The position numbers and the translations under genes were made by a program. Shown piece after piece: positions 1-46,221 of a stretch of DNA of 64,000 bases. Source of the DNA: Auraticoccus cholistanensis. Its GTDB lineage: Bacteria; Actinomycetota; Actinomycetes; Propionibacteriales; Propionibacteriaceae. Under the pieces are notes generated by a model. The model had not been told where the DNA came from. It saw only the letters and a program-made list of their open reading frames with translations, and searched no databases. The stretch spans positions 453,046 to 517,045 of the forward strand of contig NZ_WPCU01000004.1 in NCBI RefSeq assembly GCF_009742705.1. Reading direction: 5' to 3'. The stretch's first letter is position 1, and each line of letters begins with the position of its first letter.

Positions 1-2520
1 CAGCGGGGCTCCGCGGGTGAGCAGATCGACCAGCCGTACCTGGCGGCCTTCGACCGCGACACCGGCGAGCCGCTGCGCACCTTCACGCCCCGGCTCAACG
101 GCCAGGTCAAGGCGCTGGCCACGCTGCCCAACGGCAACGTGGTCGCCGGTGGGCAGTTCAGCTCGGCCAACGGCCAGCCGGTCACCGCCGTGGTGGCCCT
201 CGACCGGACCACCGGCGCCACCGACACCTCCTTCAACCTGACCATCGAGAACCGGATCACCAACGGCTCGGTGCTGGTCCGCACGCTGGCGCGGAAGGAC
301 TCCTCGCTGTTCATCGGCGGGGCCCTCACCCACGTCTCCAGCCGGGGCGGGGCCGCCTCCTACCAGCGCGGGGCCGCCCAGGTGGACGCCGCCACCGGCG
401 CCCCCGTGACCAGCTGGAACCCCGAGTTCAACGGCACCGTGGTCTCGGTCGACCCCACCCCGGACCGGCTCTACGCCGCCGGGTACTTCACCACCTCGCG
501 TGGTCAGACGGCGATGAAGGCGGCCGCCGTGCTGCGCCAGCCCAACTCACCGCTCGCCACCCCGCAGTGGTCGCCGGTCTGGAGCTCCAGCGAGCGCTCC
601 AACTACCAGCAGGCGATCAAGGCCACCACGAACCGGGTCTGGGTCGGCGGTTCCGAGCACTCCATGTTCAGCTTCGACACCACCACCTTCGCCCGCACCA
701 GCACCGGCATCAGCAACGCGGGCGGCGACCTGCAGACCATCAGCATCGCCGACGGCGTGGCCTACGGCGGCTGCCACTGCAACAACTACCAGTACTCCGA
801 CGCCACCACCTGGCCCGGTCTGGCCGGCTGGACCCAGGCGGACAAGATCGGCTGGATCGGTGCCTGGGACGCCGCCACCGGGGAGTTCCTGCCCGAGTTC
901 AGCCCGATCATCAACTCCGACAAGGGCGCGGGGTCGTGGTCGTCCATGGTCGACTCCAAGGGCACGCTGTGGACCGGTGGCGACTACCGGAGCGTGCGGA
1001 CCGGGGTCTCCAGCTCCAGCTGGGCCGGCGGCTTCGTCCGCTTCCCGCAGGTCGACAGCACCGCCCCGGCGACGCCGGGCGGCGTGGTCGTCTCCGCTCC
1101 TGCCGGTGACACGGTCCGGGTGGCCTGGAGCGGCAGCTCCGGGGCGACCTCCTACGAGGTGCTGCGGGACGACCGCGTGGTCGCCGTCACCGGGGCCACC
1201 GCCGTCGACGTCCCGCTCGGCGGGGGCAACCGGTTCTTCGTCCGGGCCGTCGACGCCGCCGGCAACCGCTCGGCGAGCAGCCGGGTCGCCGTGCCGGCCG
1301 ACCCCAACCGCAACCCGCTGGTGCTGCCCTACGGCTCCCAGTGGGCCTACCGCAACGACGCCAGCGCGGCCCCGGCGGACTGGACCGCCGCCGGCTTCGA
1401 CGACAGCTCCTGGCGCCGGGGCCCGGGCATGTTCGGCTTCGGCTCCGAGGCCGTGGTGACCAGCACCGACAACCCGGCGGGGTCGTCGGCGCGGGCGGTG
1501 ACGAGCTACTTCCGGCGCACCCTCACCATCCCCGACGTCGACCAGGTCAAGAACCTCACCCTGACCACCTGGGCCGACGACGGCGTGGCCGTCTACGTCA
1601 ACGGCAAGGAGGTCGGCCGCAAGAACCTGGGCTCCAGCACCATCAGCTACTCCCGCTACGCCGACGCCGCGCCACGGACGGCGACGGCCCAGGCGGAGCC
1701 GCTGCAGATCCAGCTGGCCGACGCCGACGTGCCGGACTCGGGCCCGCTGACCATCGCCGCCGAGGTGCACCTCAACTACAAGGGGACGCGGGACTCCAGC
1801 TTCGACCTGCGGGCCACGGCCACCTACTACACCGACTCCGACCCCAAGCCGGCGCCGCCGGCGGAGGCCGACCCGGTGCAGGAGCCGGAACCCGAGCCCG
1901 ACCCGGTCGACCCCGCCCCTGAGCCGGTGGACCCTGAGCCGGTGGACCCCGCGCCGGTGGATCCCGCGCCGGAGGCGGAGCCGGAGCCGGTGCAGCAGCC
2001 CGTGCTGGCCGCCGGCCAGCAGTGGGCCTACCGCACCGAGGCCAGCGCGCCGGCCGCCGGCTGGTCGGCGAGCTCCTTCGACGACTCCGGGTGGTCCCGC
2101 GGGAAGGCGGTGCTGGGCTTCGGCTCCGCCGACCTGGGGACCGACATCGACAACCCGGCGGGCAGCTCCGCCCGTGCCGTCACCAGCTACTTCCGCAAGA
2201 CCGTGGAGCTGGCCGACCGCGACGGGCTGCAGTCGCTGACCCTGACCACCTGGGCCGACGACGGCGTCGCCGTGTACGTCGACGGGGTGGAGGTCGGGCG
2301 CAAGAACCTCGGCACCGGCTCCCTGTCCTACGGGCGGTACGCCGACAGCGCCGTGCGCACCAGCGCGGCGCAGGCGGCACCGCTCACGATCGAGATCCCG
2401 GCGGCGGACCTGCCCGACGGCCCGCTGACCATCGCCGCCGAGGTGCACGTCAACTACCGGGCCACCAAGGACCTGAGCTTCGACCTGACGGCCGAGGCGA
2501 CCTACGAAGGAGAGCAGTGA
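1..2520 (+). CDS. Secreted beta-propeller/FN3 protein with duplicated C-terminal beta-domain (5' end missing)
   Basis: The reading frame is open from the first base, so the N-terminus and any signal peptide lie outside the window. The first ~345 visible residues carry repeating blades of the type NG.V.ALA..PNG.VVAGG.F, typical of beta-propeller surface proteins. An FN3-like domain follows (bases ~1051-1317; it starts DSTAPATPGG and contains SYEVLRDD). Two near-identical ~165-residue beta-domains come next (bases ~1318-1830 and ~2008-2517), each with LTLTTWADDGVAVYV and GPLTIAAEVH, joined by a Pro/Glu/Asp-rich linker. The repeats resemble the N-terminal beta-sandwich found beside calcineurin-like phosphatases, but no catalytic motif is visible. 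The gene overlaps the next one by 4 bases (GTGA), which suggests co-transcription with envelope genes. The exact ligand or role is unknown. Confidence 0.8.
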   Translation, partial: QRGSAGEQIDQPYLAAFDRDTGEPLRTFTPRLNGQVKALATLPNGNVVAGGQFSSANGQPVTAVVALDRTTGATDTSFNLTIENRITNGSVLVRTLARKDSSLFIGGALTHVSSRGGAASYQRGAAQVDAATGAPVTSWNPEFNGTVVSVDPTPDRLYAAGYFTTSRGQTAMKAAAVLRQPNSPLATPQWSPVWSSSERSNYQQAIKATTNRVWVGGSEHSMFSFDTTTFARTSTGISNAGGDLQTISIADGVAYGGCHCNNYQYSDATTWPGLAGWTQADKIGWIGAWDAATGEFLPEFSPIINSDKGAGSWSSMVDSKGTLWTGGDYRSVRTGVSSSSWAGGFVRFPQVDSTAPATPGGVVVSAPAGDTVRVAWSGSSGATSYEVLRDDRVVAVTGATAVDVPLGGGNRFFVRAVDAAGNRSASSRVAVPADPNRNPLVLPYGSQWAYRNDASAAPADWTAAGFDDSSWRRGPGMFGFGSEAVVTSTDNPAGSSARAVTSYFRRTLTIPDVDQVKNLTLTTWADDGVAVYVNGKEVGRKNLGSSTISYSRYADAAPRTATAQAEPLQIQLADADVPDSGPLTIAAEVHLNYKGTRDSSFDLRATATYYTDSDPKPAPPAEADPVQEPEPEPDPVDPAPEPVDPEPVDPAPVDPAPEAEPEPVQQPVLAAGQQWAYRTEASAPAAGWSASSFDDSGWSRGKAVLGFGSADLGTDIDNPAGSSARAVTSYFRKTVELADRDGLQSLTLTTWADDGVAVYVDGVEVGRKNLGTGSLSYGRYADSAVRTSAAQAAPLTIEIPAADLPDGPLTIAAEVHVNYRATKDLSFDLTAEATYEGEQ
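1864..2003 (+). repeat. Pro/Glu/Asp-rich linker repeat inside the propeller protein
   Basis: The stretch encodes short reiterated units of the form (E/A)PVDP and PEPEP that separate the two copies of the C-terminal domain. Coding for PVDP recurs five times within about 100 bases. Such linkers act as extended spacers in wall-exposed proteins. Repeat number is likely to vary between strains by slippage. Confidence 0.7.
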
Positions 2521-3245
2521 GCGTCCTCCACCCCGTCCGCCCGAGCTTCGGCGCCGCCCTGAGCGAGCTGCGGCACTCCCAGAAGCGCGGGGCGGGCGTC
2601 CCCCTCTACACCCGCTACGTCAACCGGGGGGCGGGACGGCTGATCGCCGCCGCCGCCGCCCGGGTGGGCGCCACCCCGAACCAGGTGACGCTGGTCAGCG
2701 GGCTGCTGACGCTGTCCGGTCTGCTGGTGGTCGCCCTGGTGCCGACCTCGGTCGGGTCGGCGGTGGCGGCCACCGCGCTGCTGGCGCTCGGCTACGCCTT
2801 CGACTCCGCCGACGGCCAGCTGGCCCGGCTGACCCGCTCCGGCTCGCCGGCGGGGGAGTGGCTGGACCACGTGGTGGACGCGGGCCGCAACCCGGCCCTG
2901 CACCTGGCCGTGCTGGTGGCGCTGTTCCGCTTCAGCGAGCTCCCCACCGCCTACCTGTGGGTGCCGCTGGCCTTCACCGTGGTGGTGTCCACCCGGTTCC
3001 TGGCGCTGATCCTGGCCGAGCAGCTCCGCGGCCCGCAGCCGGCCACCGCGCCCGACGGGGGCCAGCGGCTCCGCTCGCTGATGCAGCTGCCCTCCGACAC
3101 CGGGGTGCAGAACCTGGTCTTCCTGCTGCTGCCCTGGCCGACGGCCTTCGCCACCGCCTACGGGGTGCTGTTCGTGCTCAACGCCGGCCTGGCCTCGGCG
3201 TCCCTGGTCCGCAAGCAGCGCGAGATGGCACGCTTGCCCCGATGA
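2517..3245 (+). CDS. CDP-alcohol phosphatidyltransferase family membrane protein
   Basis: The 242-residue product carries the full CDP-alcohol phosphotransferase signature: D96, D99, G100, A103, R104, G113, D117 and D121 in the order DxxDGxxAR-x8-GxxxDxxxD. These residues bind Mg2+ and CDP and catalyse transfer of a phospho-alcohol headgroup. Several hydrophobic segments flank the motif, as expected for this integral membrane family. The GTG start at 2517 overlaps the upstream stop codon (GTGA) and follows GAAGGAGAG, a good ribosome site. The gene overlaps the following acetyltransferase gene by 4 bases. The acceptor alcohol cannot be read from sequence; inositol-phosphate or polysaccharide-lipid chemistry is possible given the surrounding envelope genes. 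Confidence 0.88.
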   Translation: MSVLHPVRPSFGAALSELRHSQKRGAGVPLYTRYVNRGAGRLIAAAAARVGATPNQVTLVSGLLTLSGLLVVALVPTSVGSAVAATALLALGYAFDSADGQLARLTRSGSPAGEWLDHVVDAGRNPALHLAVLVALFRFSELPTAYLWVPLAFTVVVSTRFLALILAEQLRGPQPATAPDGGQRLRSLMQLPSDTGVQNLVFLLLPWPTAFATAYGVLFVLNAGLASASLVRKQREMARLPR

Positions 3246-3772
3246 GCACCGACACCGCCCCCGTCCGGCTCACCACGCTGCTGCGCGAGGACCTGCGGGC
3301 CAACGCCGGGCAGCTGAAGGGCCAGCTGATCGTGGTCGCCTACCGGCTGGCCCACGCCGCCCGGACGCCCGTGGACCGTCCGCCGCGGCCGTGGGCCGTC
3401 CCGGTGGGCGTGCTCTACCGGCTGCTGGTGGAGTGGTTCCTCGGCGTGGAGATCCCCTGGCGGACGCGGATCGGGCGGCGGCTGCGGGTGCTGCACGGGG
3501 TCGGCATCGTGGTCAACGACGGCGCCGTCCTCGGCGACGACGTGGTGCTGCGGCAGAACGTCACCATCGGCAACAAGCGCGGCGGTCTGCCGTGCCCGCG
3601 GATCGGCGACGGGGTCAGGCTCGGCGCCTCGGCCATCGTGATCGGCGAGGTCGAGATCGGTGCCGGCGCCCAGGTCGGCGCCGGGGCCGTGGTCACCCGT
3701 GACGTGCCGGCCGGTGCCGTGGCCGTCGGCAACCCCGCCCGGGTCCGGATCCCGGCCGCGCGCGCCGACTGA
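3242..3772 (+). CDS. Serine-acetyltransferase-like hexapeptide acyltransferase
   Basis: The protein has 176 residues. Its C-terminal half shows left-handed beta-helix hexapeptide repeats (IGDGVRLGASAIVIG, EIGAGAQVGAGAVV) ending in VPAGAVAVGNPARV, the usual end of LbH acyltransferases. An H-G-x-G-I-V-V element with downstream NVTIG matches the serine O-acetyltransferase branch. The protein is shorter than typical CysE and sits in a surface-polysaccharide cluster, so O-acetylation of a sugar or glycolipid is more likely than cysteine biosynthesis. That assignment is inference. The ATG at 3242 overlaps the upstream stop (ATGA), so the three first genes form one transcription unit. Confidence 0.82.
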   Translation: MSTDTAPVRLTTLLREDLRANAGQLKGQLIVVAYRLAHAARTPVDRPPRPWAVPVGVLYRLLVEWFLGVEIPWRTRIGRRLRVLHGVGIVVNDGAVLGDDVVLRQNVTIGNKRGGLPCPRIGDGVRLGASAIVIGEVEIGAGAQVGAGAVVTRDVPAGAVAVGNPARVRIPAARAD

Positions 3773-3788
3773 GCCGCGGCGGGTCGCC

Positions 3789-4676
3789 TCAGCCGCGCAG
3801 CAGTGCGGCGGTCACCGCCGCGACCCGGCGACGCAGCAGCCAGCGCTGGTCGAGCGGTAGCCCCGCACCGGCGCGCAGCAGCCGCTCGGCGAAGCCGTCC
3901 AGCAGCGTGCGCGCCTCCGCCGTGCCGGCCGGCTCCAGGCGTCGGAGCACCCCGAACCACACCGGTTCGGCGCCCAGCACCCGGCGGGCCAGGTCGGCGT
4001 AGGCGTCCTGGAACCCAGGGGCCGTCCGTGCCCGCGCCCGCCAGCCCTGGTCGGCGGTGACCTGACCCGGGTGGCTGCGGCTGAGCAGCCCGGCCACCCC
4101 CTCGCGGCGCAGCCGGTACCCGGCGGCGCTCAGCCGCAGCCACAGGTCGTAGTCCTCGGCCGGGACGGCGCGGTAGCCCGAGACCGCCCGCAGCGCGTCG
4201 GTGCGGGCGACCAGGGTGGCGTGGGCCACCGGGTTGCCCAGCAGCAGGTGCAGCGGCATCGCCTGCTCGCTGATCCGCGCCGGCGCGTTGAGCCCGAGCG
4301 AGCGGACCCCGGCGCCGAAGCGTCCCACCGTGGTGAAGGTGGCGTCGGCGCCCGCGCGCAGCGCCCGCAGCGCGACGGCGAACCGCCAGGGCATCGAGAC
4401 GTCGTCGGCGTCCATGCGGGCCACCAGCGGCGTCTCCACCCGCTCCAGCAGCACGTTCAGCCCGCCGGCGACCCCCCGCGGCTCCGCGCTCTGCACGACC
4501 GCCACCCGGTCGTCGCCGAGCGCGCGGACCACCGCGACGGTGCCGTCGGTGGAGGCGTCGTCGTGGACCAGCACGCGCGAGCCGGCGGGCAGGCCGCGCA
4601 GCGTCGAGCGCAGGGCCAGGCCGACCGTGGCCGCGGCGTCGCGCGCCGGCACCAGGACCGTCACCGCGGTGCTCAT
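3789..4676 (-). CDS. Family 2 glycosyltransferase
   Basis: The 295-residue protein has a GT-A fold start (VTVLVPARDAAATVG), the DDAS motif at ~39-42, a metal-binding DAD at 89-91 (VARMDADD) and the acid ED at 174-175 in AEDYDLWLRL. These are the nucleotide-sugar and metal ligands of GT2 enzymes. No membrane segment is visible, so it should act on the cytoplasmic membrane face on a lipid-linked acceptor. The ATG at 4676 overlaps the stop of the flippase gene upstream, so the two are translationally coupled. It converges on the acetyltransferase gene with only 16 bases between the stop codons. Confidence 0.88.
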   Translation of the reverse strand: MSTAVTVLVPARDAAATVGLALRSTLRGLPAGSRVLVHDDASTDGTVAVVRALGDDRVAVVQSAEPRGVAGGLNVLLERVETPLVARMDADDVSMPWRFAVALRALRAGADATFTTVGRFGAGVRSLGLNAPARISEQAMPLHLLLGNPVAHATLVARTDALRAVSGYRAVPAEDYDLWLRLSAAGYRLRREGVAGLLSRSHPGQVTADQGWRARARTAPGFQDAYADLARRVLGAEPVWFGVLRRLEPAGTAEARTLLDGFAERLLRAGAGLPLDQRWLLRRRVAAVTAALLRG

Positions 4677-6187
4677 CCCTCGTCCCTCTTCCCCGGGCGC
4701 AGCGCCCGCAGCTCGTCCAGGTGCAGGGCCCGGCGGTCGGCGACCACCCAGCCGGCGAACGCGACGGTGGCCACCAGACCACCGGCCAGCAGCGCGGCGA
4801 CGCTCTGCCCCAGCAGCCAGGTGGCCGCCGCCGTGGGGACGCCGAACGACACCAGGCCGATCACGCCGGCCCGCAGCAGCGGCAGCGGGGCGAGCCGGAC
4901 CCCGGTGGCGCGGCGTACCTGCACGGTGGCCAGCACGGCGTCCAGCAGCATGCAGGCAGCCCACACCGCCGCCGCCCCCTCGATCCCGGCGACCGGGACC
5001 AGGAGCAGGTTGCCGACCACGTTGAGCGTCAGCGCGGCCGCCTTGTTGGCCGCCGCCAGCCCGCTGCGGCCGCTCATCAGCAGCAGCGAGTGCACGCTGC
5101 CGGCGCAGAGGATCACCGCCATGCCCACCGCCAGCACCCGCATCACCGTGGCGCCCTCGACGAACTCCGGGCCCAGCCACCCCAGCACCAGCGGCGCGTA
5201 GACGAACAGCATCACGTTGACCGGCGTGCTGAACAGCACCAGCCAGGTGGTGGAGCGGGTGAACAGCGAGCGCACCCCGGCCAGGTCCTCGCGCCACATC
5301 AGCCGGCTGAAGAGGGGGGTGACCACCGTCCGCATCGCGGTGTCGATCAGCAGGGCCGCCGACAGGAAGCGGCTGGCCGAGCCGTACACCCCGGCGGCCG
5401 CCGAGCCGGCGATGGCGCCGACCAGCAGCACGTCGACCCAGACCAGGGCCTGCTCCAGGCTGGTGGCCACCACCCGGGGGCCGGCGAAGCCCAGCATCGG
5501 CCGGAGCACGGCCCGCCGCGGCCGCAGCCGTCCCGGCCGTCCACCCCGGCGCTCGTGGCGACGGACCTGGCCGACCAGCACGGCCAGGGCGGCCAGCAGC
5601 CCCAGCAGGAAGGGGCTGGCCCAGGCCAGGGACGCGGTCGTCGCCGTCCCGCCGACGGCCACCGCCACCAGCACCAGCACGGGGCGGGCCAGCGGCACCG
5701 CGATGCTGCCGATGGCGATGTAGGGCCCGATGCCGCCCAGCGCCCGGGTGCAGGCGAGGGCGATCAGGAACGTGCTGGCCGCCGGCACCAGCCAGGCGCA
5801 GGCCCGCAGCGCCTCGCGGACCTCCGGCTCGGGTGCCAGCAGCGGGGCGAGCAGCCAGACGGCCGTCCCCGCCGCGAGCGCGGCGAGCAGCGCCGTGCCG
5901 AGCGCCACCGCGAGGGCGCTGCGGATCTGGTCCTGGTCCTCGTCCACCAGCCGGGGCAGGTACCACACCGACGCGGTGTCCATCCCCAGCCGGGCCACGC
6001 TGATGACGATCATGAACACGGCCATCACCTGCAGCACGACCCCGGCGCCGGCGTCCCCCAGGCTGCGGGCCAGCACGAAGGTGAGCACGAAGCCCATCAG
6101 GGCGCTGAAGCCCGAGCCGAGGAGGCTGACCGCACCCGACCGGGCGACCGAGGCCGAGCTGCTGGACGTCGCCGTGCGATCGGTCAC
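4673..6187 (-). CDS. Wzx/MATE-like lipopolysaccharide flippase
   Basis: The product of about 504 residues has a long series of hydrophobic helices (for example SLLGSGFSALMGFVLTFVLA near the start) typical of the polysaccharide-transport (PST/MOP) superfamily that moves lipid-linked oligosaccharides across the membrane. GTG at 6187 is chosen because AGGGAG lies 5 bases upstream. Another in-frame GTG at 6211 would add eight residues but lacks such a site. It is coupled to the downstream GT2 gene by ATGA overlap. Together with the polymerase and chain-length genes 3-5 kb away it fits a Wzx/Wzy-type export pathway. Confidence 0.85.
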   Translation of the reverse strand: MTDRTATSSSSASVARSGAVSLLGSGFSALMGFVLTFVLARSLGDAGAGVVLQVMAVFMIVISVARLGMDTASVWYLPRLVDEDQDQIRSALAVALGTALLAALAAGTAVWLLAPLLAPEPEVREALRACAWLVPAASTFLIALACTRALGGIGPYIAIGSIAVPLARPVLVLVAVAVGGTATTASLAWASPFLLGLLAALAVLVGQVRRHERRGGRPGRLRPRRAVLRPMLGFAGPRVVATSLEQALVWVDVLLVGAIAGSAAAGVYGSASRFLSAALLIDTAMRTVVTPLFSRLMWREDLAGVRSLFTRSTTWLVLFSTPVNVMLFVYAPLVLGWLGPEFVEGATVMRVLAVGMAVILCAGSVHSLLLMSGRSGLAAANKAAALTLNVVGNLLLVPVAGIEGAAAVWAACMLLDAVLATVQVRRATGVRLAPLPLLRAGVIGLVSFGVPTAAATWLLGQSVAALLAGGLVATVAFAGWVVADRRALHLDELRALRPGKRDEG

Positions 6188-6215
6188 GGGACTCCCTGGG
6201 CTCGGCTGCACGCTT

Positions 6216-6257
6216 GGGCAGGTGGACGGTCGGGCAGGTGGACGGTCGGGCAGGTGG
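6216..6257 (+). repeat. 16-bp tandem repeat, 2.6 copies
   Basis: Two exact copies of GGGCAGGTGGACGGTC (6216-6231 and 6232-6247) are followed by a 10-base partial copy (6248-6257). They lie in the 169-base gap between the divergent flippase and anchored-protein genes. The spacing is tandem without inversion. Strain-variable slippage is likely; a regulatory effect is possible because both promoters must lie in this gap. Confidence 0.75.
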
Positions 6258-6356
6258 GTAGGTGGGCGGTTCGGGGGTGGGCGTTGCCCGGACCTGAGAG
6301 GATAGTGGCCGCGACGCGTCGTCGCAGTGCTTCTCGTCGCAGGTCAGGAGACGCCG

Positions 6357-7100
6357 ATGGAGGCCCAGGGCCGCAGGAGAGGGCTCGGCAGGCTGCTGCT
6401 GCTCGTGGTCGCAGCCGTGCTGGTGGTGCTGCTGCTGGTCTGGCTGCTGGTGCCCCGCGGCGGGGACGCGCTGGTCTCCGGGCCCGGACCCTCGGGCAGC
6501 CCCGGCGCCACCACCCCCGCGCCCACTCCCGGCGCGCCGGCGTCGTCCCCGTCAGCCGGCGACCCGACCCCCACCGGCTCCGCCGACCCGACCGCCGCAC
6601 CCACCCCGGGCGCCTCTGCGGACCCCGGCGAGGAGGACCGGGTGGTCGCGCAGGAGGTCACCGGCGTGGTGGAGGAGACCGAGGCGACGGTCCCGGCCGT
6701 GGAGCGCCTGGTCGCCGAGACGGCCCAGTCGGTGGCCACGGTGGTCCCGGAGGGGGAGACCGCGCCGAACCTCGAGGAGCTGGAGCAGGTCGCCACCGGT
6801 GAGATGCTGCAGGAGCTCGAGGCCAGCGTGGAGGAGTTCCGCACCAACGGCTGGTACCAGCGGGGCGTGCCCACCCTGGTCAGCCTCGACGTGGGCGAGC
6901 TCAGCGAGGACGGCACCACCGTGGAGCTGGCGGCCTGCCTGGACTCGTCGCGGGTGCAGGTGATCGACGAGGCCGGCAACGACGTGCTGGCCGACCAGCG
7001 GGACCGCCGCTCCCTCAACCTCTACGTCGTCGAGCGCGCCGACGAGGACGCCCCCTGGAAGGTCGCCTCGCGGAGCTTCCCCGACGAGGCCGACTGCTAG
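6357..7100 (+). CDS. Membrane-anchored hypothetical protein with Pro/Ala/Thr/Ser linker
   Basis: The 247-residue protein has an N-terminal membrane anchor at ~11-32 after a basic stretch (GRRRGLGR). A ~55-residue linker rich in P, T, S, A and G follows, then an acidic helical part and a C-terminal mixed domain (~145-247) ending DAPWKVASRSFPDEADC. The topology suggests an extracytoplasmic C-terminal domain. The size and the closing beta strands recall NTF2-like or Mce-associated lumenal domains, but this is only a resemblance. ATG 6357 is selected because AGGAG lies 6 bases upstream; an in-frame start at 6327 lacks this. Its position among polysaccharide export genes suggests an envelope role. 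Confidence 0.75.
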   Translation: MEAQGRRRGLGRLLLLVVAAVLVVLLLVWLLVPRGGDALVSGPGPSGSPGATTPAPTPGAPASSPSAGDPTPTGSADPTAAPTPGASADPGEEDRVVAQEVTGVVEETEATVPAVERLVAETAQSVATVVPEGETAPNLEELEQVATGEMLQELEASVEEFRTNGWYQRGVPTLVSLDVGELSEDGTTVELAACLDSSRVQVIDEAGNDVLADQRDRRSLNLYVVERADEDAPWKVASRSFPDEADC

Positions 7101-7109
7101 GCCGGACGG

Positions 7110-7928
7110 CTAGGGCCGGCGGCCCAGCAGCTGGGCCGCCTTGTCGCGGGCCAGCCGGGCCACGAACCAGGGGTTGCCCAGGAGGTAGCGGCGCAGCAGC
7201 CGTCGGGGCTCCAGCGCCAGCCGCCACAGCCACTCCAGGCCGGCCCGCACCATCCAGTCCGGCGGGCGCCGGTGCACGCCGCCGAGCCAGTCGAACAGCC
7301 CCCCGCAGGTCAGCACGGCACCCACCCGCAGCTCGTCGCGGTGCTGCTGCACCCACTGCTGCTGCCTCGGGTCGCCCATCCCGACCCACAGCACGTCGGG
7401 GGCGAAGTCGTTGACGTCCTCGACGACCGCACGCGGGTCGGCGGCCCCCTCGTAGCCGTCACGCACCCGGGTGGACAGCCCCGGGTACTCCGTCTCCAGC
7501 CGCCGGGCCGCCGCGCGGACGACCTCGGGGGTGCCGCCCAGCAGGAAGTAGCGGGCCGGGCCGCGGGCCGTCAGGGCGGCGGTCAGCGGGTGGACGAGGT
7601 CGGTGGTGGCCACCCGCTCGGTGCAGCCGCCGCCGAGCAGCCGGTCGGCCCACACCACCGACTGCCCGTCGGGGTAGGCCAGGTCGGCGGCCCGCAGCTG
7701 CGCGGCCAGCCGGGCGTCGCCGCGGGCCAGGAAGGCGGAGTTGGCGTTGATCCCGACCGCCACCCGCGGCTGCTCGGAAGCGGTCCAGCCCAGCACGGTG
7801 CTGACGGTGTCGGACATCGAGACCGAGTCCACGGGGACCCCGCAGACGTCGATGCGTTCTGGTGCTCCCACTGTCCTCCCGTGGTCGTACGGCACCCACC
7901 CGTGGTGGTACCGGCGCTGGGCCCCCAT
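7110..7928 (-). CDS. WecG/TagA/CpsF family glycosyltransferase
   Basis: The 272-residue protein matches the GT26 family, which transfers ManNAc(A), Glc or related sugars to undecaprenyl-linked acceptors. It has the early VCGVPVDSVSM, the central DVLWVGMGDPRQQQW and the closing RPPDWMVRAGLEWLWRL followed by EPRRLLRRYL, which are the conserved blocks of the family. The first ~20 residues before ERIDVCGVPVD look non-conserved, so a GTG at 7871 (preceded by GGGAGGA) may be the true start. It is divergent from the Wzz-like gene with about 95 bases between them and belongs to the local surface-polysaccharide pathway. Confidence 0.87.
   Translation of the reverse strand: MGAQRRYHHGWVPYDHGRTVGAPERIDVCGVPVDSVSMSDTVSTVLGWTASEQPRVAVGINANSAFLARGDARLAAQLRAADLAYPDGQSVVWADRLLGGGCTERVATTDLVHPLTAALTARGPARYFLLGGTPEVVRAAARRLETEYPGLSTRVRDGYEGAADPRAVVEDVNDFAPDVLWVGMGDPRQQQWVQQHRDELRVGAVLTCGGLFDWLGGVHRRPPDWMVRAGLEWLWRLALEPRRLLRRYLLGNPWFVARLARDKAAQLLGRRP
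7118..7140 (-). terminator. Inverted repeat at convergent gene ends
   Basis: GGCGGCCCAG and CTGGGCCGCC form a perfect 10-bp stem with a 3-base loop. It sits inside the last codons of the WecG gene, just past the stop of the convergent anchored-protein gene. It could serve as a terminator for the rightward transcript; there is no T run, as is common in actinobacteria. Confidence 0.5.
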
Positions 7929-8023
7929 GGTGCCCCAAGGCCGGACCGCGGGCGAGTCGGCGACCCCTTCGGAGCGCTGTGACAGACTCGCGGTCGTCGG
8001 TTCGGGTGGGACGGAGAGGCACG

Positions 8024-9652
8024 ATGGAGGCCAAGCACGGCATGGCCGGCGGTGCGAGGAGCCCGCGGTCCGGGTTCGAGGTCCGCAGCGCGGTCGAGAT
8101 CGGCGTCTACCTGCGCACCGCGGTCCGGGGGATCGGCTGGGTCGTCGCGGGGCTCGTGCTCGGGCTGGCGCTCGCGGCCGGCTTCCTGTGGGTGAAGCCG
8201 CCGGTGTACACGGCGACCGCGTCGGTGAACGTCAACGTCATCACCGTCGACCCCTTCGACTCCGCGCAGTCGGCCTCCGGGCTGCTGGACCCGCCGACCG
8301 AGGCCTCGATCGCCACCTCCTACCGGGTCGCCCAGGCCGCCGCGGCCCGGCTGGCCGACGGCACCACCGCCGACGAGCTGCGCGCCACGGTGACGGCACG
8401 TCCCATCGCCGACGCCACGATCCTGCGCATCTCCTCCTCCGGGCCCTCGGCCGAACGGGCGCGGCGCCAGGCCGACGTGCTGGCCGAGGAGTACCTGCGC
8501 TACCGCCAGGACCAGGCCGTGCAGCGGCAGGAGGCCATCCTGGGCTCGATCGAGAGCTCGCTGTCGGAGCTGGAGGCCGAGCTCGCCCGCGCCACCACCG
8601 AGGAGCAGCGCTCGGCCATCCGCACCGAGATCGACGGGCTGCGCAGCCGCCGCAACGACCTGCTGAACCTCGACACCACCGGCGGGTCCGTGATCGACCC
8701 GGCCCTGGCCGGTGACGTGGAGGTCGCGCCGTCGTCCATGCTGGTGCTGGCCTCCGGTGCCGCGGCGGGCGCGGTGCTGGGCCTGCTGGTGGCCTTCGTG
8801 AGCCAGGCGCTGCGGCGCCGGGTGCACAACGCCGACGACGTCACCACCGCGCTCGGGCCGGGCCTGGTGGTCGGCCGGCGGCGGCGCGCTGCGGGGGAGA
8901 GCGCGCCGGTGGAGGACCTGCGGCTGGTCCGCGACCGGGCCATGGTGGCCGCCGAGACGCTCACGGAGCCGCTGCGGCGGGTGACCGTGGTCGACCAGTC
9001 CGGTGCTGCCTACCCCAGCGGCGTGGCTCTCACGCTGGCCCACGTGCTGACGCAGCGGCTGCGCGGGGCCTCCGTCGTCGTGCTCGGTCTGGACGCCGCC
9101 CGCCGGTCCGCGGTGGTCGAGGCGCTCGAGCTAGGCGGTGCGCCCGACGGCCCGCTGACCTCACCGCTGCTGCCCGGCGTCGAGGTGCGGCTGCCGCTGG
9201 CCTCCGAGGGCGCCGACGAGCCGGACCCGGTGCTGACCGCCCAGGCCACCCGGCTGCTGAGCAGCTCCGGGAAGCCCCACGTGCTGGTGGTGCCGCCCTC
9301 CAGCACGGAGTCCTCGCGGGCCGCCGCGGGGCTGCGCTCCGACATCGTGACCGTGGTCGTGCAGCGGGACTCCACCCGTCGCCGTGACCTCGTGGCGCTG
9401 CGGGAGGACCTCGACGCGGTGGGCTCGGAGGTGGCGGCGGTGCTGCTGGTGCCGCCGGCCGCGCGCGAGACCGCTCCGGACACCGACGACACCGACGACG
9501 CCGACGAGACGGCCGACGCCGACGAGACGGGCGACGCCGACGAGACGGGCGGGGCGAGCGCGCCGTCCTCGCCGGCCCCCGACGACCGGGCGGGCGAGGT
9601 CGCCAGGAGTGCGGTCCGGGACCGGGACGCCGTCGACCAGCGCAGCCGCTGA
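8024..9652 (+). CDS. Wzz/chain-length-determinant-like protein with degenerate kinase-like C-domain
   Basis: The 542-residue protein has transmembrane helices near residues 36-55 and 240-262 that bracket a periplasmic-type domain, ending in the YTATASV and coiled-coil regions typical of Wzz/capsular-polysaccharide co-polymerases. The cytoplasmic C-terminal half resembles the BY-kinase (P-loop) fold but lacks a Walker A lysine: GAAYPSGVALTLAHVL stands where GxGKST would be, with VVVLGLDAARR in the Walker A-prime place. The tail has three Asp/Glu-rich repeats (ADETGD). ATG 8024 follows GGAGAGG; in-frame codons further upstream look non-coding. It probably sets polymer length together with the following polymerase gene, which starts 5 bases after its stop. 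Confidence 0.82.
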   Translation: MEAKHGMAGGARSPRSGFEVRSAVEIGVYLRTAVRGIGWVVAGLVLGLALAAGFLWVKPPVYTATASVNVNVITVDPFDSAQSASGLLDPPTEASIATSYRVAQAAAARLADGTTADELRATVTARPIADATILRISSSGPSAERARRQADVLAEEYLRYRQDQAVQRQEAILGSIESSLSELEAELARATTEEQRSAIRTEIDGLRSRRNDLLNLDTTGGSVIDPALAGDVEVAPSSMLVLASGAAAGAVLGLLVAFVSQALRRRVHNADDVTTALGPGLVVGRRRRAAGESAPVEDLRLVRDRAMVAAETLTEPLRRVTVVDQSGAAYPSGVALTLAHVLTQRLRGASVVVLGLDAARRSAVVEALELGGAPDGPLTSPLLPGVEVRLPLASEGADEPDPVLTAQATRLLSSSGKPHVLVVPPSSTESSRAAAGLRSDIVTVVVQRDSTRRRDLVALREDLDAVGSEVAAVLLVPPAARETAPDTDDTDDADETADADETGDADETGGASAPSSPAPDDRAGEVARSAVRDRDAVDQRSR

Positions 9653-36147: not shown

Positions 36148-36160
36148 CCTCCGACCTACC

Positions 36161-36200
36161 GGCGCCCGATCCGCTGCGACTGCGCAGCGGATCGGGCGCC
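36161..36200 (+). terminator. 18-bp palindrome after hspR (copy 1 of a repeated element)
   Basis: The left arm 36161-36178 (GGCGCCCGATCCGCTGCG) and right arm 36183-36200 are perfectly complementary around a 4-base loop. It can terminate the heat-shock operon. The same sequence recurs at 37222-37261 with one change, so it is also a dispersed palindromic element. Confidence 0.8.
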
Positions 36201-36271
36201 GCTGTCGTCCCTGTCCACAGATGTGGGTCCGGGCGGAGGCGGGGAGGTGGCGGGCGGGGGAGGGTCGGAGG

Positions 36272-37215
36272 GTGCACGCACGCCTCGACCCAGGCCCCCA
36301 GCTGGCCGACCTCGCCGTCCTGCAGGCGGGCGTGGTGTCCCTGGAGCAGGCCCGCGGGCACGGGCTGGGACGCAACTCGGTGGCCCGGCTGGTGCGCGAG
36401 GGGCGGTGGCGGCCGCTGGGCCGCGGCGTCTACGCCGTCCACGCCGCCGAGGAGCCGCGCTGGCTCGGGCTCGCCTGGGCGGGGGTGCTGGTCGGCGGGG
36501 ACGGCGCGCGGCTGGGCGGCTGGGCCGCCGCCCACCTGCACGGGCTGGCGGAGCCGCCGCCGGAGCTGGAGGTGTGGCTGCCCCGCGACAGCCGGGTGCG
36601 CGGCGGGGTGGGCCCGTGGCGCTTCCGGCACGAGCGGCCCGGCACCCACCGCACGACGCGCGTCGGCGACCCGCCCCGGCTGGGCGTCGAGGACACCCTG
36701 CTCGACCTGCTGGCCGAGCTCACGCCCGACGAGGCCGTGGCGCTGCTGATCCGCGCCGTGCAGACCCGCCGCACCACCCCCGACCGGGTGCGCCGGGCGG
36801 CGGCGGAGCGGCCGCGGCTGCGTCACCGCCGGCTGATCGCCGAGGTGCTGGCCGAGGTGTCGGCCGGTGTCGAGTCGCCGTTGGAACGGCGCTACCTGCA
36901 CGACGTCGAGCGGGCCCACGGCCTGCGAGCGGGGCAGCGGCAGCAGCGGGCGTCCGGCTCGGTGCGCGACGTGGTGTACCTCGACCACGGCTGGTGGTGG
37001 AGCTGGACGGCCGCTTCCACGAGGGGGCCGGACGCTTCCGCGACATGCGCCGGGACAACCTGGCCATGCTCTCGGGCCAGCGGACGCTGCGGTTCGGCTG
37101 GCCGGACGTCACCCAGCGGCCGTGCGAGGCGGCGTCCCAGGTGGCGACGCTGCTGGTCGACGGCGGCTGGGGCGGGCTCTTCCGCCGCTGCCGACGCTGC
37201 CGGTCCGTGGTCTGA
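36272..37215 (+). pseudogene. AbiEi-like/DUF559 protein gene broken by a -1 frameshift
   Basis: From GTG 36272 the frame encodes an AbiEi-antitoxin-like N-domain (LADLAVLQAGVVSLEQARGHG, LVREGRWRPLGRGVYAVH, AAHLHGL) up to VRDVVYLDHG near 36991. The DUF559 nuclease-like end (VVELDGRFHEGAGRFRDMRRDNLAM to GWGGLFRRCRRC, stop 37215) continues in a different frame. Inserting one C after the GGC at ~36991 would restore the expected HGLVVELDG. The break therefore falls just before the catalytic E-x-D core. Either the gene is inactivated or the base is a sequencing error. It is flanked by two copies of a 45-bp palindromic element. Confidence 0.8.
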
Positions 37216-37221
37216 GCCGGC

Positions 37222-37261
37222 GGCGCCCGATCCGCTGCGACTGCGCAGCCGATCGGGCGCC
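37222..37261 (-). repeat. Palindromic element, copy 2
   Basis: This copy matches 36161-36200 at 39 of 40 positions (C at 37250 replaces G at 36189), leaving one mismatch in the stem. Identity extends to 45 bases (37221-37265). It lies between the stops of the broken DUF559-like gene and the convergent MFS gene, so it can terminate both. Confidence 0.8.
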
Positions 37262-37266
37262 GCTGC

Positions 37267-39673: not shown

Positions 39674-41929
39674 TCAGGCGGGCCGGGGTGCCGGCGGGGA
39701 CGCTGCTCGGCCGCGGGACGCCGGCGCCGCGACGCCGGCCGCCGCGACCGAGTGGTTGTGGCCGAAGACGTCCTCGGGGTCGTAGCGGTCCTTGAGTGCG
39801 CGCAGGCGGGCGAGCGTGGGTCCGGGGAAGATCTCGGCGAGCCGCTCGGGGCGCCGGTCGGTCTCGAAGCTGGAGTAGATCCCCGAGAAGTGGTGGCTCA
39901 TGGCGTCCCAGCGCCGGTCGAGCCGCTCCCGGGACGTGCCCAGGGCCACCGCCTGGAAGCCGGCCGTGCGGTGGGCGTAGGCGGTGGCCCCGGCGGGGAC
40001 GTCGTTGACCGCGCCTCCCACGGAGCGGATCTGGAAGAAGTAGAGGTCGCCGCTGCGCAGGAGCCGCTCGGCGTCGTCGGCGAACTGCGGACTCAGGTGC
40101 TCCAGCATCGCCGACCGGGTGACGGGTTCGCCCTGGCCGGCGTGCACGTCGTCGGTGCGCTGCACCACGCCGCTGTACGGCAGCAGCTGCACCAACTGCT
40201 GCACCAGCGGCGCCAGCCGGGCGAAGGGCTGCAGCCGGGCGACGATCGTCTCGGGGTCGTCGGAGGCGACCACGGCCATCACCTGCGCCAGCACCTGACC
40301 CCCGCGGGGACGTCCCATGATGAGGAACGGCGTCAGGTCCCGCGGCGCGGTCTCGACGAGGGCGCCGAAGTCCACCAGGAAGCCCGCGACGTCGTCCACG
40401 GCGAAGGCCAGCTGGGCGAACCCGACGTCGCCGACCTCGGCGACCTCGAACTCGAAGGCCGTCACGATGCCGAGGTTGCCGCCCGCTCCCCGGAGACCCC
40501 AGAACAGGTCCGGGTGGTGCTCCTCGTCGGTCCGCACCACCGTGCCGTCGGCCAGCACGACCTCGGCGGCTCGCAGGTGGTCGATCGTCAGACCGTGCTG
40601 GCGGGCGAGGAACCCCAGTCCGCCGGCGGTGGCCAGACCGCCCACCCCGACCCCGCCGTAGTCGCCGGAGGTGAGGGCCCACCCGTACGGCTGCAGCGTC
40701 TCGGCGACCTGTCCCCACCGCGCGCCGGGACCGATCCGCACCCGGCGGGTCCGGTGGTCGAGCACCTCGACGGCGTCGAGGTGGCGGAGGTCGAGGACGA
40801 TGCCGCCGTCGTTGGTGGAGCGGCCGCTGATCCCGTGGCCGCCGCTGCGGACGGCCAGCGGCACGGGCTGGCTACGGGCCCAGCCGAGAGCGGTGACGAC
40901 CTGCTCGGTGTCACGGGGGAGCAGGACCAGTCCGGGGCTCCCGCCGCGCAGGTAGTTCGAGCGCATGCTGCGGTAGCGGGCGTCCCCCGGCTCGACCGTC
41001 TCCAGGCCGGCCGGGACGTCGTCGTAGTCGATGCCCGCTCGCCGGCGGGCACGGACACGGGCGGGTCGGGTCGGCGCCGGGCGGGTGCCGCGGGATCTGC
41101 GGGTCGCGGCGACGAGGTCGCGCAGGGCCGGGGCGACCGCGGTGGCGAGGTGCTGCACGGTGGCGGGGTCGGTGGTGGCCAGCAGGACCGTGTCGATGCC
41201 GTCCTCGACCACCAGCCGGACCAGGGCGGGCAGGTCGGGCAGCGTGGCCAGGGTCAGCAGGCGCCGGATCTCCGCCGGGTCGCGGCCCGCCCGGTCGGCG
41301 GCGGCGTCCAGGCGCGACTGCGCCGCGGCGACGGTGGTCGGGTCCGGCGCCTCGGTCCACCAGCCGTCCGCGGTGCGGGCGGCGAGGTCGAGCAGCGCCT
41401 CGTCGGTGCCGCTGAGCCAGACCGGCAGCTCGTGGGCCGGCGCGGGCCCCGGCTCGGCTCCCGGCACCCGGTGGAGCGGCCCGGCGGCGCGCACCGGGCC
41501 GCGGTCGGCCGTCCACATGCTGCGCAGGACGGCGATGGTCTCCCCGACCGCGCCCGCGTGGGGCTGCACGCCCAGGGCCGGGGAGGCGGCGCCGGTCGGG
41601 ACGGCGGTCAGACCGAGCTCCAGGCGGCCGCCCGTGATCCGGTCGAGGTCGGCGGCGGCGCGGGCCAGCACCGCGGCAGTACCCGTCGGTGCGAGGGCGT
41701 GCGTGGCCAGCGTGATCCTGTCGGTCGTGCCGGCCAACCAGGCGAGCGTCGTCCACGGGTCCGGACCGCTGGGCCCGGAGGCCTCCCCGGCGGCGGCGTC
41801 GGTGACGGCCAGCAGGTCCAGCCCGGCCTCGTCGGCCGTCCGGGCCAGCCGGGTCAGCCCGTCCGGGGTCAGCACCGAGGGGTCGACGGCCACGCCGAGC
41901 CGGACCGGGTACCCGTGGTCGCGGGTCAT
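39674..41929 (-). CDS. Fusion of LLM-class flavin oxidoreductase and FAD-linked (BBE-type) oxidase
   Basis: The 751-residue protein joins two enzymes in one frame. Residues ~1-285 are a luciferase-like monooxygenase (RLGVAVDPSVLTPDGLTRLARTADEAGLDLL, DRITGGRLELGL, TADGWWTEAPDP). After a basic linker (~290-310) comes a FAD_binding_4 plus BBE oxidase: PLAVRSGGHGISGRSTNDGG with the covalent-FAD histidine, GVGVGGLATAGGLGFLARQHGL, and the terminal YDPEDVFGHNHSV. The second FAD-linking cysteine of berberine-bridge enzymes is not present. ATG 41929 overlaps the stop of the upstream LLM gene (ATGA). Substrate is unknown; MarR control suggests a detoxification or aromatic/redox role. Confidence 0.87.
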   Translation of the reverse strand: MTRDHGYPVRLGVAVDPSVLTPDGLTRLARTADEAGLDLLAVTDAAAGEASGPSGPDPWTTLAWLAGTTDRITLATHALAPTGTAAVLARAAADLDRITGGRLELGLTAVPTGAASPALGVQPHAGAVGETIAVLRSMWTADRGPVRAAGPLHRVPGAEPGPAPAHELPVWLSGTDEALLDLAARTADGWWTEAPDPTTVAAAQSRLDAAADRAGRDPAEIRRLLTLATLPDLPALVRLVVEDGIDTVLLATTDPATVQHLATAVAPALRDLVAATRRSRGTRPAPTRPARVRARRRAGIDYDDVPAGLETVEPGDARYRSMRSNYLRGGSPGLVLLPRDTEQVVTALGWARSQPVPLAVRSGGHGISGRSTNDGGIVLDLRHLDAVEVLDHRTRRVRIGPGARWGQVAETLQPYGWALTSGDYGGVGVGGLATAGGLGFLARQHGLTIDHLRAAEVVLADGTVVRTDEEHHPDLFWGLRGAGGNLGIVTAFEFEVAEVGDVGFAQLAFAVDDVAGFLVDFGALVETAPRDLTPFLIMGRPRGGQVLAQVMAVVASDDPETIVARLQPFARLAPLVQQLVQLLPYSGVVQRTDDVHAGQGEPVTRSAMLEHLSPQFADDAERLLRSGDLYFFQIRSVGGAVNDVPAGATAYAHRTAGFQAVALGTSRERLDRRWDAMSHHFSGIYSSFETDRRPERLAEIFPGPTLARLRALKDRYDPEDVFGHNHSVAAAGVAAPASRGRAASPPAPRPA

Positions 41930-42834
41930 CGGGCCGCCTCCTCGCGGTGCTGGGCGACGACCTCGCGCAGGGCGGGGGCCACCTCCTCGCCGAGGACGCG
42001 CAGCGACCGCTCGTCGTCGCCGGTCAGGACGTAGCCGCTGAACCCGAGCTGGAGGGTGAGCTCGGCGAGCTGCTCGACCCACTGCGACACCGGTCCCTGC
42101 AGGAACCCGGTGCTGGCGCCCGTGGTGAAGGTCCCGCCGATGTTGAGGAGCCGGCGGACGGCCGAGGGCTCGCGCCCGGCCGCGGCAGCCGCCTCGTCGA
42201 TGCGCGCGTTGGCGTCGACCAGCTCCTGGGGGTCCTTGATGTAGGGCAGGGACGGCAGCCAGCCGTCGGCCTTCTGACCCGTCAGGGCCAGCATCTTCGG
42301 CTTGTACGCCCCCAGCCAGATCGCGACCGGGTGCGCCGGTGCGGGTCCGCGCTTCGCGCCGCGGACGCCGTAGTAGGTGCCCTCGACCCTCAGGCTCTGG
42401 CGGGTCGAGGTGTCCCACACCCCGCGGATGACGTCGATCGCCTCGCTGAGCGCGGTGACGGCCTGACCGGGGCTCAGCCGGCGCCCGCCCATCGCCTCGA
42501 TGGCGTCCCAGAAGCCGCCGGCGCCCAGCCCGAGCTCGACGCGGCCGCCGCTGAGCAGGTCCAGGCTCGCCACCGCGCGCGCGAGGACCGCGGGCGGGCG
42601 CAGCGGGAGGTTCAGCACGTTGCCGGAGAGCGAGATGCGCTCGGTGCGCGCGGCGACGTAGGACATCAGCGTCCAGGTGTCGAGGAACCCGGGCTGGTAC
42701 GGGTGGTCCTGGAAGGTGACCAGGTCGAGACCGGCCACCTCGCTCGCCCGTGCCAGCCGGACCACCTCCTCGGGGCGGGCGTTCGTCGGGGTGATGAAGG
42801 AGCCGAGCAGGAGGTCGTGCCCGTAGTCGCTCAT
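41926..42834 (-). CDS. LLM-class flavin-dependent oxidoreductase
   Basis: The 302-residue protein is a luciferase-like (beta/alpha)8 enzyme: LLLGSFITPTNARPEEVVRLARASEVAGLDLVTFQDHPYQPGFLDTW, DLLSGGRVELGLGAGGFWDAIEAMGG and QKADGWLPSLPY are typical F420- or FMN-dependent members. It is distinct from the N-half of the fused neighbour, with which it is translationally coupled. AGGA lies 8 bases before ATG 42834. Promoter elements between it and the divergent MarR gene suggest regulation by that protein. Confidence 0.9.
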   Translation of the reverse strand: MSDYGHDLLLGSFITPTNARPEEVVRLARASEVAGLDLVTFQDHPYQPGFLDTWTLMSYVAARTERISLSGNVLNLPLRPPAVLARAVASLDLLSGGRVELGLGAGGFWDAIEAMGGRRLSPGQAVTALSEAIDVIRGVWDTSTRQSLRVEGTYYGVRGAKRGPAPAHPVAIWLGAYKPKMLALTGQKADGWLPSLPYIKDPQELVDANARIDEAAAAAGREPSAVRRLLNIGGTFTTGASTGFLQGPVSQWVEQLAELTLQLGFSGYVLTGDDERSLRVLGEEVAPALREVVAQHREEAAR

Positions 42835-42869: not shown

Positions 42870-42936
42870 CGGTCACACAGATCGTATGTCCGACAGATGA
42901 TCGGTTCAACCGTGCGTCGCGACGTACGATGGGTGG
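42870..42936. promoter_or_regulatory. Divergent promoters between LLM operon and MarR gene
   Basis: On the minus strand TTGAAC (42909-42904), 17 bases, TACGAT (42886-42881) forms a good promoter for the oxidoreductase pair. On the plus strand TACGAT (42925-42930) ends 6 bases before the marR ATG, implying a leaderless message. CCGA-N7-TCGG (42890-42904) overlaps the minus -35 and is a candidate MarR site. Confidence 0.6.
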
Positions 42937-43437
42937 ATGGCGAGGACGACGACCGACGGCGGCCGGCTGGGGCACCAGGAGCTGGGCTGGACCCTCGGGG
43001 TGCTGCTGCGTCACTACCAGGACGAGGTGGGCCGGGTCCTCGACGACGTCCCGCAGGGGCACCGCGGGTTCCAGGTGCTGACCTCGGTCGTGCACGGCGA
43101 CCAGCGCAGCCAGCTGGCGCTCGCCCGCCACCTCGGCATCGACCGCACGGTGATGACCTACGTCGTCGACGACCTCGTCGCCGCCGGCTGGGTGGAGCGC
43201 CAGGTCGACCCCGACGACCGGCGCCAGCGACGTCTGGTGGCCACGCCCGCCGGCCGGCAGCGGCTGGCCCGGCTCGAGCTCGACGTCCGTGCCGCCGAGG
43301 ACCGGGCCCTGTCGAGCCTGCCCGGCGAGGACCGCGCCACGCTCCGGCACCTGCTCGGGGTCGTCGCCTGCGCCATCCGGCAGGTCGACCCGGTGGACCC
43401 CTGCGAGGCGGTCGAGTCGGCCCTCCGGCCCCGGTAG
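42937..43437 (+). CDS. MarR family transcriptional regulator
   Basis: The 166-residue protein has the MarR winged helix: SQLALARHLGIDRTVMTYVVDDLVAAGWVERQVDPDDRRQRRLVATPAGRQRLARL, with the DxR wing motif. It most likely represses the divergent LLM/FAD oxidoreductase operon and itself, responding to a phenolic or redox ligand. ATG has no Shine-Dalgarno site and follows TACGAT by 6 bases. Confidence 0.92.
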   Translation: MARTTTDGGRLGHQELGWTLGVLLRHYQDEVGRVLDDVPQGHRGFQVLTSVVHGDQRSQLALARHLGIDRTVMTYVVDDLVAAGWVERQVDPDDRRQRRLVATPAGRQRLARLELDVRAAEDRALSSLPGEDRATLRHLLGVVACAIRQVDPVDPCEAVESALRPR

Positions 43438-43525: not shown

Positions 43526-43592
43526 GTTGAGCGGAGGTGGCTCAAGTTGGAATACTGGTCCTCGACGACAGGTTGAGCCGGTAGGACTCAAG
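43526..43592 (+). promoter_or_regulatory. clpB promoter with two HAIR (HspR) operators
   Basis: HAIR repeats occur at 43526-43546 (GTTGAGC-N7-GCTCAAG) and 43572-43592 (GTTGAGC-N7-ACTCAAG). A promoter fits exactly: TTGAGC (43527-43532) as -35, 18 bases, AATACT (43551-43556) as -10. The first operator therefore contains the -35 and the second lies just downstream of the start, a clear repression layout. Confidence 0.9.
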
Positions 43593-43626
43593 GTGGGTCC
43601 TCCCCATGCCGTACGAGGAAGTGCCC

Positions 43627-46221
<2,595 letters not shown>

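Follow-up and report, generated by a model that had tools for sequence, protein, structure and literature searches.

A fused LLM–FAD oxidase gene with a putatively inactive LLM half beside an intact LLM gene in Auraticoccus cholistanensis

Gene organization and predicted regulation

We analyzed a 64,000-nucleotide stretch of the Auraticoccus cholistanensis genome (completeness 99.98%), termed the window, in which an ORF of 751 codons, opening with an ATG at position 41929 and free of internal stops, encodes an LLM domain fused to an FAD-linked oxidase (Table 1). The amino-terminal part matched Bac_luciferase (PF00296) over residues 18–228 with 105 bits at a cut-off of 27.9. The gene overlaps a second, separate LLM gene and a divergent MarR gene lies alongside, confirming the coupling described in an earlier note on this DNA. 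LLMs as such are common in this host, as its genome yielded 17 LLM matches including the two of the window.

Table 1 Features of the LLM–oxidase locus (positions of the window)
Feature	Position	Strand	Basis
LLM–FAD oxidase fusion gene, 751 aa, LLM half putatively inactive	39674–41929	(-)	ORF, Pfam, GC3, homologous fusions
Fused LLM barrel, aa 1–290	41060–41929	(-)	model retains eight barrel strands; active-site motif absent
aa 43–52, TDAAAGEASG in place of QDHPY of intact LLMs	41774–41803	(-)	alignment; model pLDDT <50 at 45–55
FAD_binding_4 domain, aa 333–467	40529–40933	(-)	Pfam 113.9 bits, cut-off 26.4
His365, predicted 8-alpha FAD-linking His	40835–40837	(-)	aligned with EncM H78
aa 423–427, DYGGV, no Cys	40649–40663	(-)	alignment with EncM
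BBE C-terminal motif, aa 704–728	39746–39820	(-)	Pfam 23.6 bits, cut-off 20.6
Separate LLM gene (302 aa) with intact QDHPY, predicted to be the working monooxygenase	41926–42834	(-)	4-nt overlap with fusion; Pfam, motif alignment
Imperfect palindrome ATCATCTGTCGGACATACGAT, predicted MarR operator	42881–42901	(-)	between MarR and LLM genes
Divergent MarR-family regulator gene	42937–43437	(+)	PF12802 43.7 bits, PF01047 39.7 bits

The earlier note had read an LLM and an FAD oxidase in one chain, with an artificial joint at 40960–41060 as the doubt to be settled. The GC3 of the ORF was 0.88–1.00 in all ten 80-codon blocks, junction included, and because this profile is even across the junction no frame shift is visible. 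Together with the open frame and with homologues aligning over both halves, this rules out a frameshift or assembly joint, so that the single chain stands on an intact ORF, three Pfam domains and homologous fusions.

Both domain scores of the regulator lie above their MarR cut-offs. A 21-bp imperfect palindrome was common to three Nocardiopsis intergenic regions, and comparing these Nocardiopsis-derived sites with the 64-kb window returned the palindrome of Table 1 as the best place, with 4–5 mismatches; the best places in 40 base shuffles, run for one Nocardiopsis site, had 6–8 mismatches each. No other place in the genome comes within 3 mismatches of the window's own site. The intergenic regions of other relatives contained a similar site or no clear site, and elsewhere the module adjoins a different MarR-like regulator or a short protein that is HxlR-like by eye. 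Control of the LLM and fusion operon by MarR through this predicted operator, as the earlier note had proposed for the gene pair, is likely.

Further features were observed in the window. A 45-nt near-perfect palindromic, REP-like repeat occurs at 36160–36204 and 37221–37265; allowing up to 3 mismatches, its pattern has 9 occurrences genome-wide. The AbiEi/DUF559-like gene at 36221–37215 (by eye) has its amino- and carboxy-terminal parts in different frames and may represent a pseudogene or a sequencing error. At 43572–43592, just upstream of an ORF (43606–46221) that is clpB-like by eye, lies a site two mismatches from the HAIR (HspR) consensus, at a chance expectation of 0.02.

Related fusions and the oxidase half

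A contig scan with the window protein, using six exact peptide patterns, yielded 70 loci (numbered L###; genomes are numbered G###), of which 19 aligned over both halves (L001–L017, L019, L020); given the reliance on exact patterns, this count is a lower bound. All 19 belong to named actinobacteria, and the frame is broken in one of them, L017. Among 57 genomes of relatives, own included, both halves were matched in four (own, G035, G040, G049), and G001 and G055 carry an oxidase and an LLM adjacent to each other without a full fused LLM. Likewise, in a draw of 396 genomes from the phylum (completeness ≥90, E 1e-60, fusion of L003 as query), 11 including the own genome matched over both halves. 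The domain-architecture check suggested by the earlier note thus returned other LLM–oxidase fusions in actinobacteria, and the counts among relatives and in the phylum draw show that the fusion is widespread, patchy and no artefact. None of the open PMC papers listed by full-text searches described such a fusion in its title or the start of its abstract, subscription papers lying outside the scope of this search.

The pairing of LLM and oxidase persists whether the arrangement is fused, split (L015, 4-nt overlap), reordered or partly decayed, which argues for their functional coupling, in agreement with the LLM–oxidase pairing claimed before. The 4-nt overlap was present in 8 of 9 downstream arrangements, with gene starts taken from a purpose-made caller. 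In L015 (Streptomyces wuyuanensis, 2463–4687 and 5995–8238) the split pair lies beside an intact fusion, whose fused LLM retains its motif.

Several arrangements were recorded besides. In the fusion of L019 (5995–8109), some 60 residues are missing from the FAD-binding domain, the LLM being intact, and the oxidase is possibly inactive. In L123 (7850–8869), L124 (3035–4048) and L125 (8046–9059), the module is followed by a further LLM-like gene (~337 aa, by eye). LLMs related to those of the window are fused to a hemerythrin domain (PF01814) in L089 (10287–11873) and L095 (2104–3669), the two scanned out of seven, with L090–L094 similar by length or eye; these LLMs therefore have at least two fusion partners. 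In one genus (five genomes, four being L089–L092) the LLM and oxidase genes lie ~7 kb apart, an arrangement that we set aside as a side branch, since its oxidases fall outside the fusion clade and the scanned LLM carries the hemerythrin domain. An MFS transporter was likewise discarded as a fixed partner: such genes, belonging to one cluster, occur close to the module in the window and in L003, L010 and L085, but directly adjacent only in L003 and L085.

His365 of the oxidase half aligned with H78 of EncM, which is a flavin ligand according to an excerpt of PMC7662398. The surrounding GHG motif was found in 34 of 34 rows compared (L017, with its broken reading frame, and L018, at a contig end, left out) as well as in the split copy. 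No Cys for a second (6-S-cysteinyl) FAD link occurs at residues 420–430, where alignment with the BBE motif would place the berberine-bridge Cys around Y424. The earlier note had thus correctly described the FAD-His as present and the bridge Cys as absent, which places the protein outside the bicovalent subgroup. As mono-covalent BBE-like oxidases are known (PMC11375781, in excerpt), the missing Cys is not remarkable. FAD_binding_4 and BBE scores over cut-off together with the 8-alpha His position place the oxidase half among BBE-like/VAO-PCMH proteins. The O2 pocket for the N5-oxide of EncM is not retained, V427 standing at the position of T139, and since the EncM T139V variant shows oxidase activity (excerpt of PMC7662398), a mono-covalent oxidase is predicted here rather than an N5-oxide oxygenase. 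An ordinary mono-covalent oxidase is thus the more likely assignment for this half.

Loss of the active-site motif in the fused LLM

Of the intact-type LLMs in the alignment, 54 of 54 carried the QDHPY motif, the separate LLM of the window among them, as did 0 of 9 decayed fused LLMs, where the latter count holds by definition, as rows were classed as decayed by loss of the His, and the former does not (L081, lacking the domain, and the distant L104 were left out). Besides the motif, the window's fused LLM has lost G104 and G106 of the Gly loop. It departs at 15 of 39 invariant columns, compared with 7 for L082 and 17 for L083, these columns being defined on 43 of 47 aligned LLM rows, after removal of three decayed ones and a distant one; when each of the 43 was left out in turn, its departures reached at most 5 of 44 (split LLM of L015). 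In 16 fusions without an adjoining LLM, the fused LLM was 57–70% identical to the separate LLM of the window and 34–41% to its fused LLM. With the distant LLM L104 as intermediate, the His of QDHPY aligned with the His of the SDH motif in F420-dependent glucose-6-phosphate dehydrogenase, and it presumably corresponds in position to His44 of LuxA. An excerpt of PMC10696468 describes LuxA His44 as essential for light emission.

Modelled with AlphaFold2 (pLDDT 82.2, pTM 0.74), the fusion retains eight strands of the barrel in its LLM half, pLDDT values falling below 50 at residues 45–55, 81–83 and 111–122, the expected sites of the motif and the Gly loop. As the matches listed by a VIA search with the whole model were all oxidases, the LLM half was also modelled alone, resulting in a TIM barrel (pLDDT 83.2, pTM 0.83) similar to Mer (Z 28.1, rmsd 2.2, 252 residues aligned), SfnG (Z 26.7) and LuxA (Z 23.9). 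The kept fold is partly information from homologues, because the input alignments include intact ones. By its Pfam score the domain belongs to the family, and passing the cut-off counts against the reading as a dead domain; the QDHPY of its clade is nevertheless missing. Altogether, these data suggest that the fused LLM of the window is a catalytically dead but folded domain, and the two working flavin enzymes in one chain of the earlier note do not agree with the loss of QDHPY and G104/G106.

We next considered the selective constraint, using a purpose-written NG86 script, on pairs that share rows. The decayed fused LLM gave dN/dS values of 0.88, 0.61 and 0.51 for the pairs L123/L124, L123/L125 and L124/L125, respectively, whereas the oxidase half gave 0.28, 0.35 and 0.27 and the separate LLM 0.28, 0.23 and 0.22. 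The same parts of L123/L126 gave 0.47, 0.26 and 0.19, L126/L127 being too alike to be counted. For three Occultella pairs, in which the fused LLM is intact, dN/dS was 0.14–0.29 in all parts. Judged by these ratios, constraint on the decayed fused LLMs is relaxed, not gone.

The loss of the motif follows the presence of a neighbouring LLM gene, scored within the flank covered (~3 to 6 kb each side). In the first 24 rows, comprising the 18 usable loci of the contig scan, L081–L085 and the window, the motif was lost only beside a separate LLM gene, namely in the window, L082, L083, L085, where a stub of ~150 residues is left, and L081, the locus of the complete same-genus genome G001, whose oxidase has no fused LLM at all. 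Three Occultella genomes combine a separate LLM with an intact fused LLM. A prediction was fixed before ten fresh fusions were opened: as predicted, the motif was kept in 4 of 4 without a neighbouring LLM and lost in 5 of 5 with a downstream LLM, all of one family and thus not five events, while in G136, with an upstream LLM and the prediction 'may have lost', it was intact. The separate LLMs of these fresh fusions kept QDHP(Y) in 6 of 6 cases. Over the 34 rows, all 20 without an adjoining LLM were intact (L015 being scored here, though its split pair sits 1.3 kb away), whereas of the 14 with one 10 had lost the motif and 4 (three Occultella, G136) had not.

On the tree of the oxidase half, three changes are needed for each trait, and on its well-supported branches the loss may go back to a single origin; an independent-pairs test gave no significance, the pairs being too few. 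The association between loss and neighbour is thus clear in the counts and rests on few events, about three on the tree. In the LLM tree, from which six copies of the fresh fusions were left out, the upstream separate copies (window, Occultella) group with the fused LLM of L003 (95/95) and the downstream ones (L081, L082, L083, L085) form another clade (98/94), so that the separate LLM gene likely arose at least twice. In this tree the window's fused LLM and L083 fall together, which was distrusted as a long-branch effect, as the oxidase trees set the two apart. In L081 the oxidase has an FMN-reductase-like gene on its upstream side and an LLM on its downstream side; it clusters with that of L083, a member of another family, rather than with the window's, suggesting its acquisition by horizontal transfer.

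Proposed function and comparison with known systems

Based on the architecture, the lost and the intact motif, the conserved pairing and the shared palindromic site, we consider it probable that the separate LLM, using FMNH2, and the covalent-FAD oxidase form a working pair, with the fused LLM remaining as a folded, catalytically dead domain. The locus would then constitute a MarR-controlled two-flavoenzyme oxidation module, in which MarR is expected to repress the operon until a ligand binds, the separate LLM would oxygenate the substrate with reduced FMN and O2, and the oxidase, with its FAD attached through His365 only, would oxidize the product or the substrate, presumably in this order, releasing H2O2. 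In the putative ancestral state one bifunctional chain carried both functions, as it apparently still does in many relatives; once an intact LLM gene became established beside the fusion, the fused LLM would have lost its active site and persisted as a dead domain, either as a remnant or as a dock.

That the fused LLM is a mere remnant, decaying, awaiting loss and without a role beyond not harming the oxidase, is a serious possibility, if one we hold at somewhat less than even. The 34 rows provide the corresponding series, from 20 intact fusions without a neighbour and 4 intact ones with a separate LLM through 8 decayed barrels and the stub of L085 to the absence in L081, and dN/dS is raised about two-fold. 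These ratios nonetheless stay below 1, and the frame is kept over deep divergence (L123/L126, at 53% identity).

Alternatively, the dead LLM could pair with the separate LLM in a LuxAB-like manner, holding the working enzyme against the oxidase, which we regard as possible but rather doubtful. In its favour, 8 of the 10 loss rows (window, L082, L083, L123–L127) retain the decayed domain in frame at close to its full length, with a dN/dS below 1. In an excerpt of PMC10696468, helices 2 and 3 make the LuxA–LuxB contact, and their retention matched that of intact controls (ratios of 1.00 and 0.99); in the 11 remaining segments the ratios ran from 0.44 to 1.05, the latter reached by loop 139–168. 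Similarly, at columns conserved to ≥90%, retention was 0.90 in helices 2/3 (12 columns) versus 0.66 elsewhere (65 columns), with a one-sided p of 0.0096 over columns that are not independent. Resolved per helix at columns conserved to ≥70%, however, the excess resides in helix 3 (0.82) and helix 1 (0.83), with helix 2 alone ordinary (0.60), weakening this retention as proof of docking. Moreover, L081 of the same genus has lost the whole domain and L085 retains only its stub, so a dock would be dispensable there. The stronger version, a repeatedly evolved LuxB-like pseudoenzyme whose fused barrel would preserve its dimer face and hold the active LLM on the covalent-FAD oxidase, appears slightly more doubtful still; if true, a bifunctional enzyme would turn into a docked two-protein complex once a separate LLM gene arises.

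The cofactor of the separate LLM could also be F420, which the earlier note had admitted beside FMN and which we judge unlikely. TIGR03619, an F420 subfamily, was the best NCBIfam LLM model for both LLMs, though with 122.1 bits for the separate LLM and 92.7 for the fusion below its cut-off of 166.9, and F420 enzymes are among the most similar experimental structures. Furthermore, the own genome contains a CofE homologue, which fits F420 use, next to an ORF that resembles CofD by eye, and of the 36 genomes that carry the module (L018, an oxidase fragment at a contig end, included), 22 have a cofH match over cut-off (17/26 and 5/10), with weaker matches below cut-off in some of the other 14 (e.g. 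G049, G074, G355). On the other hand, cofG and cofH had no match in the own, nearly complete genome, nor cofH in the complete G001, and G281 and G312, both with intact fusions, lacked a cofH match at 1e-60; an excerpt of PMC8498797 describes FO synthesis by cofG/cofH domains as universal in studied F420 producers. FMNH2 is therefore the favoured cofactor, and in L081 and L083 a Flavodoxin_2/FMN_red gene lies directly upstream of the module. Two hemerythrin-type genomes searched alongside gave no cofH match. In L086 (3859 to ~5760), from a genome without cofG/cofH matches, a CofE homologue is accompanied by a CofD-like ORF (by eye), a region that may be a remnant or an unusual F420 pathway.

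A new active site binding a different cofactor or ligand seems improbable: the active-site loops of the window copy are changed rather than vanished and its end branch measures 1.15, but the decayed copies have no common new motif (TDAAA, PDKPH, AD, GEPP, GDPP, RDAP and RDDP at the motif site) and their dN/dS is relaxed. Least probable of all is the earlier note's channelling between two active halves of one chain, plausible for L003, L009 and L118, with an intact fused LLM and no adjacent LLM in the stretch covered, but at odds with the motif and glycines lost in the window.

Taken together, the locus combines ordinary parts in an uncommon, instructive arrangement. LLM–oxidase fusions represent a recurrent enzyme type, and the steps from intact fusion to added separate enzyme, dead domain, stub and absence offer a natural experiment on which of channelling, docking and mere co-expression the joining of two enzymes serves, with the caution that a Pfam match over cut-off can be a dead enzyme.

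Among known systems, the oxidase half is closest in fold to EncM (PDB 3w8w, 4xlo; VIA Z 44.2, rmsd 2.3, 427 residues aligned, 30% identity), followed by McrA (9r43, Z 42.7) and 6-HDNO (2bvf, Z 39.5). All three share the His for FAD and the missing Cys, 6-HDNO and McrA being oxidases that attach FAD through His only. The window oxidase differs from EncM by V427 for T139, D423 for V135 and G426 for H138, and from all three by being joined to an LLM barrel. Its best NCBIfam match was the BagK/FevA1 FAD oxygenase (NF041226) of bagremycin and ferroverdin clusters, although with 176 bits far below the cut-off of 800, and by eye the neighbouring ORFs gave no sign of such a cluster. Mer, FGD, SfnG, RutA and LuxA share the TIM barrel, and the separate LLM has the QDHPY; the fused copy of the window differs by lacking motif and Gly loop, and its host by having no cofG/cofH match. 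A parallel in organization is LuxAB, where one catalytic and one non-catalytic LLM barrel are encoded side by side (PMC10696468, in excerpt). In contrast to LuxAB, the putatively non-catalytic barrel of the window carries an FAD oxidase, and its decay recurs in several relatives.
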